From Alphaproteobacteria bacterium (lineage in GTDB: Bacteria; Pseudomonadota; Alphaproteobacteria; UBA9219): a DNA stretch of 45,218 nucleotides. The stretch spans positions 1 to 45,218 of the forward strand of contig JAMFSS010000008.1 in the NCBI GenBank assembly GCA_026225415.1, written 5' to 3'. The position numbers and the translations under genes are program-made. Numbering within the stretch: position 1 is the first letter of the stretch; every line of letters begins with the position of its first letter. Positions 41,719 to 44,209 of this stretch are shown here, in pieces. The notes beneath the pieces are model-generated. The model was not told the origin of the DNA and did no database searches. It saw nothing but the letters and a program-made list of their open reading frames with translations.

Positions 41719-42951
41719 ATGAATGTTTCCGACCTTAAAGGCAAAACAATAGCCTTCGCCGCTTCCGGCGGGCTCGACAGCTGCACCATCACCCATTGGC
41801 TGGCCGAACAAGGCGTCAAAGTCGTCGCCTTCACCGCAGACCTCGCCCAACCCGATGAAACCGATTTCGGCGCGATTGAAAAACGCATGCGCGCTTGTGG
41901 TGCTGTCGATTTTGTCGGCATCCAATTGCAAAAACCAATGGCCGCCATCGGCATCGAAGGCGTCCAAACCCAGGCCTGCTACGAAAGCCGTTACTGGTCG
42001 ACAACGCCCTTTGGCCGCCAAGTCACCGTCGCGGGCATTTTGCCGGAAATGAAAAAGCGCGGCCTGAAAATTTTCAGCCACGGCGCAACCGGTCGCGGCA
42101 ATGACCAGGTGCGCTTTCAACTTATCACCAATATGCGCGAACCGTCTTTTGATACATACGCCCCATGGCGCGACGAAGCCTTCCTGTCGCGGTTCAGCGG
42201 CCGCATGCAAATGATTGATTACTGCGAACAACATGGCCTGCCCATCAAAGCCTCGCGCGACAAACCTTATTCAACCGATGCCAATCTGCTCGGCCTTACG
42301 CATGAAGGTGGCAAGCTGGAATCGCTGGACACACCCGCGCGTTTCGTTACACCCGAAATGGGCGTGTGGCCGGAACAATCGCCCGACAAACCCGAAATCT
42401 TCACGGTACGTTTTGAAAACGGCCATCCGGTCTTGATCAACAACCAACCCGTCGATGATTTAAAGGCTATGCTGATCGCCAATGAAATCGGTGGCAAACA
42501 TGGCATCGGTATCGGCCTGCACATGGTTGAAAACCGTTTCGTCGGCGTGAAATCGCGCGGCATATACGAAGCACCGGGCATGGAATTGCTCGGCACCGCC
42601 TATGGCTTTTTGCTGCAACTGGTTATGGATCGCCGCACCAATGAAATGTTTACCACGCTCTCGGCGGCCATCACCAAACAATTGTATCAAGGCTATTGGA
42701 ACGATGTCGCCACGCGCATGGCCCGCAAAGCGATTGCCGAAGTGACGGAACTGGCGACAGGCACCATCAGTGTGTCGATCTACAAAGGCACCGTGTCCTA
42801 TGTCAATGCAACAGACGCGCCACACTCTTTGTTTTCGGCAGACGGCTCGATGGAAGACGAAGGCTCTTTCGACCACAAAGAATCCGAAGGCTTCCTGCGC
42901 GTCCTCGGCGTCCACGCCCGTTCTATCGCCAACGCCGGTCAGGTGGAATAA
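41719..42951 (+). CDS. argG: Argininosuccinate synthase
   Basis: ArgG joins citrulline and aspartate with ATP to argininosuccinate, the penultimate arginine step. The 410-residue protein has the N-type ATP pyrophosphatase loop AASGGLDS (14-21), FTADLAQPDETDF, the substrate region HGATGRGNDQVRFQL, DKPYSTDANLLGLTHE, and EIGGKHGIGIGLHMVENRFV leading into SRGIYEAPG. It belongs to the longer E. coli-like branch judging from YSTDANLLGLTHE. GGAG lies seven bases before the ATG. argH is not adjacent. A possible arginine-codon leader precedes it. Confidence 0.95.
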   Translation: MNVSDLKGKTIAFAASGGLDSCTITHWLAEQGVKVVAFTADLAQPDETDFGAIEKRMRACGAVDFVGIQLQKPMAAIGIEGVQTQACYESRYWSTTPFGRQVTVAGILPEMKKRGLKIFSHGATGRGNDQVRFQLITNMREPSFDTYAPWRDEAFLSRFSGRMQMIDYCEQHGLPIKASRDKPYSTDANLLGLTHEGGKLESLDTPARFVTPEMGVWPEQSPDKPEIFTVRFENGHPVLINNQPVDDLKAMLIANEIGGKHGIGIGLHMVENRFVGVKSRGIYEAPGMELLGTAYGFLLQLVMDRRTNEMFTTLSAAITKQLYQGYWNDVATRMARKAIAEVTELATGTISVSIYKGTVSYVNATDAPHSLFSADGSMEDEGSFDHKESEGFLRVLGVHARSIANAGQVE

Positions 42952-42970: not shown

Positions 42971-43034
42971 CATCCCGGAAGTTTTGCTTTTTTCCGCGCC
43001 AAAGCGCGGGAAAATGCGAAACTATCCGGGATCC
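42971..43034. repeat. REP-like palindrome after argG
   Basis: Outer arms CATCCCGGAAG and CTATCCGGGATCC pair and enclose TTTTGC/GCGAAA and an inner TTCCGCGC/GCGCGGGAA hairpin. The stem is of REP type (relative of the copy at 7161) and lies 20 bases after the argG stop, so it may stabilise the mRNA end or terminate it. It occupies the first third of the 346-base gap 42952-43297. Confidence 0.65.
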
Positions 43035-43102
43035 AGTTTCCCTCTCCATACGACCCCACTTTCATTATTATGGAAATATCTTTCTAGCATGTGATTTTTC
43101 CC

Positions 43103-43131
43103 TTGACAATCATCCCACCCCCTGCTAAAAC
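43103..43131 (+). promoter_or_regulatory. Strong candidate promoter before a structured transcript
   Basis: A perfect -35 box TTGACA (43103-43108) and TAAAAC (43126-43131) are 17 bases apart. The expected start near 43138 coincides with the first base of a hairpin (GCATCCT/AGGATGC). It faces into a region with no plus-strand gene other than the short frame at 43162-43272. Confidence 0.55.
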
Positions 43132-43137
43132 AAACCC

Positions 43138-43280
43138 GCATCCTCTAAAAAAGGATGCCTGATGAAACCGGCTTCCCCGCCAGCCATGGATGAAAGGGAA
43201 GCGCAGGCCCTCAGGGTTGTTGACGTACGTCCTGCCTTACACAGGACGCCTGCAGGGACTGCCATTTTGTAACGAGGGGA
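43138..43280 (+). ncRNA. Candidate structured small RNA or 36-residue gene
   Basis: Right after a good promoter lies a series of perfect local stems. These are GCATCCT/AGGATGC (43138-43158), GCTTCCC/GGGAAGC (43171-43202) and an outer GCAGGC/GCCTGC (43203-43253) around an inner GTCCTG/CAGGAC. Within it a frame from ATG 43162 to TAA 43272 could encode 36 residues (starts MKPASPPAMDERE). Its AGGA binding site (43152-43155) is inside the right arm of the first hairpin. No clear U-rich terminator ends it. It is convergent to greB. I know of no matching RNA family; the call is structural. Confidence 0.4.
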
Positions 43281-43297
43281 ATAAGAAGGGGAATTAT

Positions 43298-43846
43298 TCA
43301 AACATCATAAACAACAGACAGAATTTCAACATACTCCACACCGGAAGGCGTCCGCACGCCCACCTCGTCGCCCGCACGCGCTTTGAGCAAAGCCTTGGCA
43401 ATGGGTGAAATCCAACTGATTTTACCGGCGGATAATTCGGCTTCATCCACGCCGACAATCATCACACATTGCTTGCTGCCATCCGCACGCGCATAACACA
43501 CCGTCGCGCCAAAAAACGCCTGGTCCCGGTTTTTCTGTTGTTGCGGGTCGACGACAACCGCCGACTCTAAACTTTTGGTCAAATACCGCACGCGGCGGTC
43601 AATTTCCCGCAACCGCTTTTTGCCATAAATATAATCACCATTTTCCGAACGGTCGCCATTACCCGCCGCCCACGAAACCACCTCCACCACTTTGGGGCGC
43701 TCAACGCGCATCAATTGGCGCCATTCGTCACGCATCGCTTCAAACCCGCGCGGCGTAACATAGTTTTTGTAATCTATCGGGCGGTCGGCGGCGATTTCAT
43801 CTTCGTCATCCGCGCCGTCGCCTTCTTTGGTAAATGCTTTACTCAT
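43298..43846 (-). CDS. greB: Transcription elongation factor GreB
   Basis: GreB rescues backtracked RNA polymerase by stimulating cleavage of the transcript 3' end. The 182 residues consist of an acidic N-terminal extension of about 20 residues (EGDGADDEDE). The coiled-coil domain (YVTPRGFEAMRDEW ... WAAGNGDRSENGDYIYGKKR with the conserved Asp/Glu tip; core GDRSENGDY) follows. The FKBP-like domain ending SGVEYVEILSVVYD follows. The core GDRSENGDYIYGKKRLREID is typical of GreB rather than GreA. The extension is longer than in E. coli GreB. It is convergent with the structured-transcript region. Confidence 0.93.
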   Translation of the reverse strand: MSKAFTKEGDGADDEDEIAADRPIDYKNYVTPRGFEAMRDEWRQLMRVERPKVVEVVSWAAGNGDRSENGDYIYGKKRLREIDRRVRYLTKSLESAVVVDPQQQKNRDQAFFGATVCYARADGSKQCVMIVGVDEAELSAGKISWISPIAKALLKARAGDEVGVRTPSGVEYVEILSVVYDV

Positions 43847-43942: not shown

Positions 43943-44209
43943 ATGGACAATTTAACTGCATTCAAAGTCATTGGCTTTCTGATGACAGCAACAGGCGCCG
44001 CCAACCTTATACGATACAGAACGGGCGCCACAACGGTTCTGGTGGGGCTGGGATTGATGGTCGCCGATGATTATTCCACAACCTGCCTCCGGCTGGATGA
44101 AGACCTTACGGCATTTTTTGTCGATGGCGGAAAAATGGCGGTTAACATTGTCGATTCTTTGTTAGTCGGCGGCGATCATGTTATAAGGCACACAACGCCT
44201 CACCCATGA
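43943..44209 (+). CDS. Small unknown membrane-associated protein
   Basis: The 88-residue product, from an ATG with GGGAG about eleven bases upstream, has two weakly hydrophobic stretches (AFKVIGFLMTATGAANLI and ATTVLVGLGLMVA). The remainder contains a Cys and several acidic residues (TTCLRLDEDLTAF, then VDSLLVGGDHV). No known motif was recognised. It is followed after 13 bases by the MaoC gene on the same strand, with which it may be co-transcribed. Short length makes it less certain than neighbours. Confidence 0.55.
   Translation: MDNLTAFKVIGFLMTATGAANLIRYRTGATTVLVGLGLMVADDYSTTCLRLDEDLTAFFVDGGKMAVNIVDSLLVGGDHVIRHTTPHP

Follow-up and report, generated by a model that had tools for sequence, protein, structure and literature searches.

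The gap of 346 nt that separates argG (plus strand, ending at position 42951) from greB (minus strand, ending at 43298) in the window—the whole stretch of 45,218 nt analysed here—carries one copy of a dispersed multicopy gene family, which we consider likely to encode a small non-coding RNA of ~130–145 nt that associates with itself through copy-group-specific pairing of the apical loop of its second hairpin, P2. RNA polymerase would start a few bases before the first hairpin (P1), and most copies would end at a U-run after P3. The P2 apical loop would offer a palindrome of 6 nt, in most copies preceded by G and followed by A, to which its counterpart on another molecule could pair, so that the RNA self-associates and, with different palindromes on different copies, each copy group pairs with its own kind; further contacts, and with them larger assemblies, may come from two more palindromic sites in P3 (B and C). 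We infer transcription, intermolecular pairing and specificity from comparison of the copies; as to the cellular role, our guess is that it serves as a scaffold that assembles itself or as a regulatory RNA that works as a dimer. The case draws its strength from homologues that were invisible to the original prediction, and the window copy taken alone is a modest finding.

A dispersed multicopy family

BLAST searches of the window's own genome (G000) revealed near-complete copies on contigs C6 (93%) and C3 (91%), as well as a diverged copy on contig C1, alike in promoter and first hairpin and diverged over the remainder. At least seven copies of the window type (type i) were present in a congener, G006. 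The C1 copy, used as a query, led to the same promoter ahead of a second type of RNA (type ii) with a different first hairpin, represented by at least five copies in G000 and by more in G006 and G002. Covariance models were built from type i (R1), from type ii only (R2) and from 50 copies (R3). R1 matches the window copy, which belongs to its seed, over 43135–43216 (70.2 bits). R2 matches two type-i loci (L051 at 6.3e-7 and L040 at 4.2e-4) and R1 matches a copy in G015 (5.9e-6); since R1 and R2 each find members of the other type, the two types were treated as one family.

Within the taxonomic family, eight of the 24 genomes searched had R1 matches, of which that in G004 (L083, E 0.03) was judged false and dropped, as its sequence is unlike a copy; across the 33 genomes of the order, R2 found matches in seven and R3 in nine. 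We accepted at least 59 copy sequences at no fewer than 58 loci in ten genomes, which fall into two genera of one alphaproteobacterial family. Each count per genome is a minimum, as the model searches scored no more than 135–150 initial candidates in any one genome: 26 sequences in G006, ten in G000, seven in G015, four in G009, three each in G002 and G007, two each in G004 and G008, and one each in G001 and G005. Two G006 sequences (L172 and L175), both at contig ends, share an overlap of exactly 141 nt and so represent one locus, leaving at least 25 loci in that genome; counts given below over 58 copies include both sequences, and hence cover 57 loci, to which the G005 copy adds the fifty-eighth. 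Carriers comprise nine of the ten genomes of genus g1 and the sole genome of genus g7 (G015). With R2 and R3, no accepted copies were found in the tenth g1 genome (G003) or in any of the order's 13 further genera. A class-wide R2 search gave 0/385, under filters so strict that the window's own genome was also missed, and shows little.

Pattern matching in genome contigs returned 34 matches, 16 of them in five metagenome-assembled genomes that carry the family. The other 18 were judged to be chance matches, with model scores that were weak (five matches) or absent; the weak scorers were L136, L144, L162, L163 and L165 (the best, L165, at 24.7 bits, E 0.002), and the sequences of L136, L163 and L165 were read. 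A viral origin was considered on the strength of two exact pattern matches in viral contigs and rejected, both being judged chance: one (L167) has no model match at E 0.5 and the other (L168) matches R1 weakly (21.6 bits, E 0.011), with neither promoter nor family layout.

No Rfam family matched over the window copy at gathering score. At loose thresholds, sub-gathering matches were the only ones over or beside the window copy, L003 and L009; these were of microRNA and snoRNA type and were judged chance. A further 16 loci searched at loose thresholds gave no match over the copies. Altogether 21 of 58 loci were tested against Rfam, and no match to the OLE, ROOL or GOLLD covariance models was found over the copies in those 21. 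At L062 (G006, contig C126), an Alpha_RBS match of 47.3 bits (gathering cut-off 38) lies at 1863–1962, ~160 nt beyond the copy.

Comparison of the nearest flanking frames (blastp, 1e-8, with crude frame finding) yielded three matching pairs, all within G006. In the relatives' loci examined, no argG match was found beside greB. As there is no constant neighbour, the family is not the leader of one gene, and a cis-acting leader (riboswitch or thermometer) was rejected: neighbours differ and the window copy points at the 3′ end of greB, as originally described.

Several G006 copies (on contigs C187, C83, C173, C159 and C175) are located no more than a few hundred bases from the end of their contig. 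Together with the 141-nt overlap of C159 and C175 inside one copy, this suggests that the repeats probably break the assembly. One further G006 locus (L173, contig C89) looks like a mosaic, with a P2 of the CTATAG class and a 3′ half resembling the CGTACG class, which suggests gene conversion between copies.

Gene anatomy and covarying helices

Most copies share a layout of promoter-like sequence, 5′ hairpin (P1), long interrupted hairpin (P2) and P3—a hairpin set within an internal loop of larger size—usually followed by a U-run. One copy (L071, at 10402 on G006 contig C57) is missing most of P3 and passes from P1–P2 nearly directly to a terminator-like hairpin, so P3 seems to be a separable module. 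P1 loops are often of GNRA type in type ii and A-rich in type i; among the 53 that were read, GAAA occurred 14 times, GCAA nine times and GTAA four times.

Upstream DNA was readable for 57 copies, and 43 of these score at least nine of 12 sigma-70 matches at a spacing of 16–18 nt, a count that takes the best of several spacings and has no shuffled control. In these 43, the −10 box ends 3–5 nt upstream of the copy. The remaining 14 score 5–8, with no clear promoter; several of them are type-i copies from G006 and G007 that, by our own reading, have TTGCAT-like −35 boxes. A further upstream motif, ATGTGATTTTTCCCTTGAC, occurs at 11 sites in G000 (≤3 mismatches), against none for the reversed control; eight of the 11 precede RNA copies. 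The other three (C1:141427, C1:25196 and C5:5813, loci L196, L198 and L199; 1–3 mismatches) yielded nothing with R2 and nothing but a 7.4-bit fragment with R1. On account of these three RNA-less places, the notion that this motif marks an element-specific regulon was dropped; the motif appears to be a promoter type in general use in G000. A strong terminator-like hairpin occupies the apparent leader at L198.

Base pairing was assessed in an alignment, A8, of 50 of the 58 copies (R2 at E 0.5), 47 of them distinct; the window copy, L002, L003, L004, L045, L048, L084 and L093 are left out of it. Among 21 helix pairs, 19 have changed on both sides, with 93.1% of cells paired against 75.7% when shuffled, a score of 0.468 against 0.181, and 28–58% paired in slid controls; A8 was itself fitted to the structure under test, which favours that structure, and many of its rows are close relatives. 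All five P1 pairs have changed on both sides. The P2 helices covary too, the inner pairs being weakest (helix 5: 79.2%). On these comparative grounds, the copies constitute a structured RNA gene family with covarying helices and, in most copies, a promoter-like sequence.

At the window locus (Table 1), the promoter boxes and their spacing are present as originally predicted, and so are the stems: P1 (seven pairs), GCTTCCC/GGGAAGC and CGTCCTG/CAGGACG. Our promoter scan requires a T at the last −10 position, and it missed the boxes of the window copy because that final T is lacking. Folding of the window RNA beats dinucleotide shuffles moderately, with z −2.69 for 161 nt (two of 200 shuffles equally good) and −2.26 for 147 nt (6/200); two near-identical paralogues gave −0.66 and −0.39, for folded stretches that started inside their P1. 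The longest reverse-strand frame listed there has 58 codons (43125–43301, TTG start), rather than the 47 claimed.

Table 1: Features of the RNA gene copy in the window, with the evidence behind each.
Feature	Positions	Strand	Basis and remarks
Upstream motif ATGTGATTTTTCCCTTGAC	43089–43107	+	Covers most of the −35 box; common to other copies
−35 box TTGACA	43103–43108	+	Sequence; family promoter comparison
−10 box TAAAAC, after a 17-nt spacer	43126–43131	+	Sequence; family promoter comparison
P1, 5′ hairpin with AGGA in its 3′ arm	43138–43158	+	Stem scan and fold; covariation in A8
P2, long hairpin (outer CTGA/TCAG, inner GCTTCCC/GGGAAGC)	43159–43214	+	R1 match; A8 covariation
36-codon frame, judged incidental	43162–43272	+	ORF list; paralogue comparison
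P2 apical loop G-CCATGG-A	43183–43190	+	Palindrome A at 43184–43189; proposed symmetric kissing loop
Site B, ACGTACGT palindrome, 5′ side of P3	43223–43230	+	Weak support; not retained in C6 and C3
P3b hairpin CGTCCTG/CAGGACG	43228–43248	+	Compensated changes in C6 and C3
Site C, CCTGCAGG palindrome, 3′ side of P3	43249–43256	+	By eye, tentative; retained in C6 and C3
Short U-run past P3, possible 3′ end region	43265–43268	+	Sequence

The terminator scan found no terminator-like site on the plus strand of the window copy. The sole such site listed here is formed by P1 on the minus strand (43158–43138) together with a T-rich stretch, and could also end greB transcripts, ~140 nt past the greB stop. 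Downstream of argG lies an inverted repeat, CATCCCGG...CCGGGATC (window 42972–43032), which is distinct from the RNA element and has only sub-threshold microRNA matches, surely spurious; GTCATCCC stretches also occur near L004 and L043. An 88-codon frame past greB (43943–44209) has no Pfam match.

A palindromic loop that differs between copies

In most copies, the P2 apical loop reads G, a six-base palindrome, then A, and the palindrome itself varies. We counted 13 hexamers over 58 copy sequences, with the G..A flanks in 48 of them: CTGCAG (17), CCATGG (11), CGTACG (nine, counting one locus twice), CGGCCG (five), CTATAG (four), GCCGGC (three), GGCGCC and TCATGA (two each), and AGCGCT, GTTAAC, TGCGCA, CCCGGG and GCATGC (once each). 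Eighteen of these assignments were made by hand and 40 by a pattern of the listed hexamers. Six hexamers occur within G000 and five within G006; as copies in one genome carry different hexamers, pairing should be copy-group-specific. Among the paralogues of the window copy, for instance, that on C4 carries GTTAAC and that on C2 AGCGCT.

A less subjective count came from scanning offsets in the 43 distinct A8 rows that have letters in all loop columns. At the aligned loop, starting from its second base, 41/43 rows hold a palindrome and the other two, both GCCGGC rows, hold one a base earlier; every other offset from −25 to +25 gives palindromes in 0–2 rows. An R1 alignment that includes the window copy (A9) is palindromic in 25 of 26 rows (CTGCAG 13, CCATGG 11, GCATGC 1), the last row being unaligned there. 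Treated as pairs, the A8 loop hexamer has 98.4% of cells paired, against 64.2% when shuffled and 18.6–60.5% in slid controls, with 43 cells changed on both sides against 10.8 and a score of 0.735 against 0.168. Neither the tally of loop pairs showing both-sided changes (3, shuffled 2.1, 54/500) nor that of further pair types (6, shuffled 6.8, 490/500) exceeded shuffles. Many copies are close relatives, so these counts overstate the number of independent events, and alignments and models alike were made after the palindromes had been noticed.

As control loops, P1 and P3b contain no six-base palindromes (0/53 and 0/56, respectively) and palindromes of at least four bases in 4/53 and 4/56, a weak control because many of these loops are too short (4 bases). 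Copies found after the palindrome idea had been formed brought four new hexamers, all palindromic (GCATGC, CCCGGG, GCCGGC and GTTAAC), and the G005 copy, found last (E 0.013), has TGCGCA inside a 10-nt palindrome. Under unconstrained minimum-free-energy folding of P1–P2, 35 of the 58 copies have a palindromic hexamer exactly centred in the hairpin. In the window copy, one of the 23 that do not, the best fold pairs part of CCATGG, the open loop being 2.1 kcal/mol worse. In three G000 copies, A..T around the hexamer extends it to a longer perfect inverted repeat.

Being neighbours, the two middle bases of the hexamer are unable to pair with each other in a single strand; that they covary implies either pairing between two molecules or action at the level of DNA. 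By sequence comparison, a loop able to pair with itself is kept by covariation, which is the mark of a symmetric kissing-loop RNA.

Two further palindromic sites may exist in P3. At site B, 23 of the 42 type-ii copies have a palindrome in exact register (GCATGC 21, GGTACC 1, GTATAC 1) and 19 do not, four of which have a palindrome shifted by a base. Site C, read by eye in 16 type-i-like copies, is CCTGCAGG, CCCCGGGG, TCCCGGGA, CCCGGG, CCCGCGGG or GCGCGC; in type ii, it forms the core of what is probably the terminator hairpin, and a palindrome there says less. The G005 copy, also by eye, has GCATGC at B and GCGCGC at C. Opening A, B and C together in the window copy costs 15.5 kcal/mol, which makes the part played by B and C tentative and counts against all three acting at once here. 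If real, B and C would, tentatively, make the RNA multivalent. An extended reading, possible but doubtful in our view, is that the copies form orthogonal multivalent RNAs, in which loop A would serve as a ‘barcode’ and act with B and C to build homotypic particles, fibres or condensates, and in which duplication and palindrome switching would give rise to new assemblies that do not mix.

Competing explanations

The palindromes could instead belong to a mobile or repeated DNA element (MITE- or REPIN-like), as sites for a recombinase or a dimeric DNA-binding protein, with the RNA fold a by-product. Copies are indeed dispersed without neighbours in common between genomes (the three blastp pairs all falling within G006), copies that are nearly identical occupy different locations, and some of those in G006 resemble segmental duplicates or mosaics. 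However, 13 unrelated hexamers at one position are hard to square with one DNA-binding specificity, the helices tolerate G-U pairs (for example nine and seven U-G cells in P2) that would be mismatches in DNA, the flanks of the hexamer are usually the non-complementary G..A (48/58), and promoter-like sequence is kept in 43/57. We regard this reading as unlikely; even a mobile route of spread would not exclude an RNA function. As DNA-level readings fit less well, we take a symmetric kissing loop to be most likely, with self-association as the working mechanism that the comparison suggests.

Somewhat less probable again is an ordinary trans-acting small RNA, the loops of which would pair with mRNAs or bind a protein and whose self-complementarity would be incidental or merely stabilising. 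Size, promoter, 5′ hairpin and U-run all fit such an RNA, and multicopy small RNA families, with several paralogous genes per genome, are known from alphaproteobacteria. Target pairing, however, does not explain why a palindrome should have been re-created in 13 forms. GGA motifs in the loops resemble CsrA sites and suggested a CsrA sponge of the CsrB/RsmZ type, a candidate dropped when no CsrA gene was found in G000 by PF02599, which matched three of 14 control genomes. A hammerhead-like or C/D-box-like core was likewise discarded, as the CTGATGA of the type-i copies in G000 is not kept elsewhere.

A regulated microprotein or dual-function RNA, in which the first stem would mask the ribosome-binding site that serves the 36-codon frame, we judge very improbable: frame, stem and AGGA (6 nt before the ATG) all exist, the C6 copy retains 36 codons and a frame of 30 codons or longer occurs in 46/58 copies (ATG, GTG or TTG starts; many clipped by the 150-nt limit set), yet the C3 frame ends after 20 codons through a one-base insertion, and starts, frames and peptides differ between RNA types. 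C6 differs from the window copy at four codons, all non-synonymous. Two of these differences, CGT/CAT and ACG/ATG, together make up a single P3b pair that reads G-C in the window copy and A-U in C6; C3 holds a further compensated pair in P3b. Within the first 26 nt, AGGA is found in just six of 58 copies, GAGG in nine and neither in 43, so hiding a ribosome-binding site is no general trait of P1. To judge from these paralogues, changes between near-identical copies track base pairing, not peptide, and both the frame and the hidden site look incidental. What survives of the original prediction is its proposal of a small RNA, which the comparison supports through a promoter-led, covarying family in ten genomes; the copies show covarying helices and no conserved reading frame.

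Relation to known self-associating RNAs

Symmetric kissing-loop RNAs are a known kind. For OLE and GOLLD, symmetric kissing loops have been argued from covariation of adjacent loop bases, and the loops there switch between short palindromes, with switching cores of a tetranucleotide and a dinucleotide (PMC12286853). The family described here resembles OLE, GOLLD and ROOL in being a bacterial non-coding RNA in which the same loop of two chains would pair with itself, a pairing proposed here from comparison. OLE has 577 nt in that work and the others are also described as large (PMC12286853), against ~140 nt for our family. It differs too in its dispersed loci, at least 25 in the richest genome, and in its 13 hexamers.

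The dimerization loop of HIV-1 has nine nucleotides and the loop here eight. The viral loop presents a six-base palindrome between conserved purines and makes a homodimer by loop–loop pairing (PMC7357161); the family has a similarly flanked palindrome, for which we propose such pairing from sequence. The HIV-1 site is a packaging signal of a viral genome, in contrast to a diversified bacterial gene family. In designed RNA nanostars, the loop sequence likewise sets which molecules associate: sequence-orthogonal designs formed separate condensates, and one design used the palindromic HIV loop GCGCGC (PMC11289419). Nanostars are synthetic and have three consecutive arms, whereas the RNAs here occur in nature and have a single palindromic loop with good support, plus two tentative sites.

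In the open-licence literature that we searched, no small RNA family with a switching palindromic loop was found. The resemblance to alphaproteobacterial multicopy small RNA families lies in the several paralogous genes per genome. To our knowledge, no small bacterial RNA family with many copies and a diversified loop has been described before.

Natural RNA homo-oligomers are described as rare (PMC12286853, PMC7357161). The best documented bacterial examples are very large RNAs, and the present family is small and multicopy. Its 13 self-complementary hexamers provide unusually clean comparative evidence for intermolecular RNA pairing, and it offers a short, easily synthesised system in which to test copy-specific RNA self-recognition in cells. 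Because a single mutation breaks the pairing of a dimer at two places, the family may also serve as a model for how palindromic contacts evolve.
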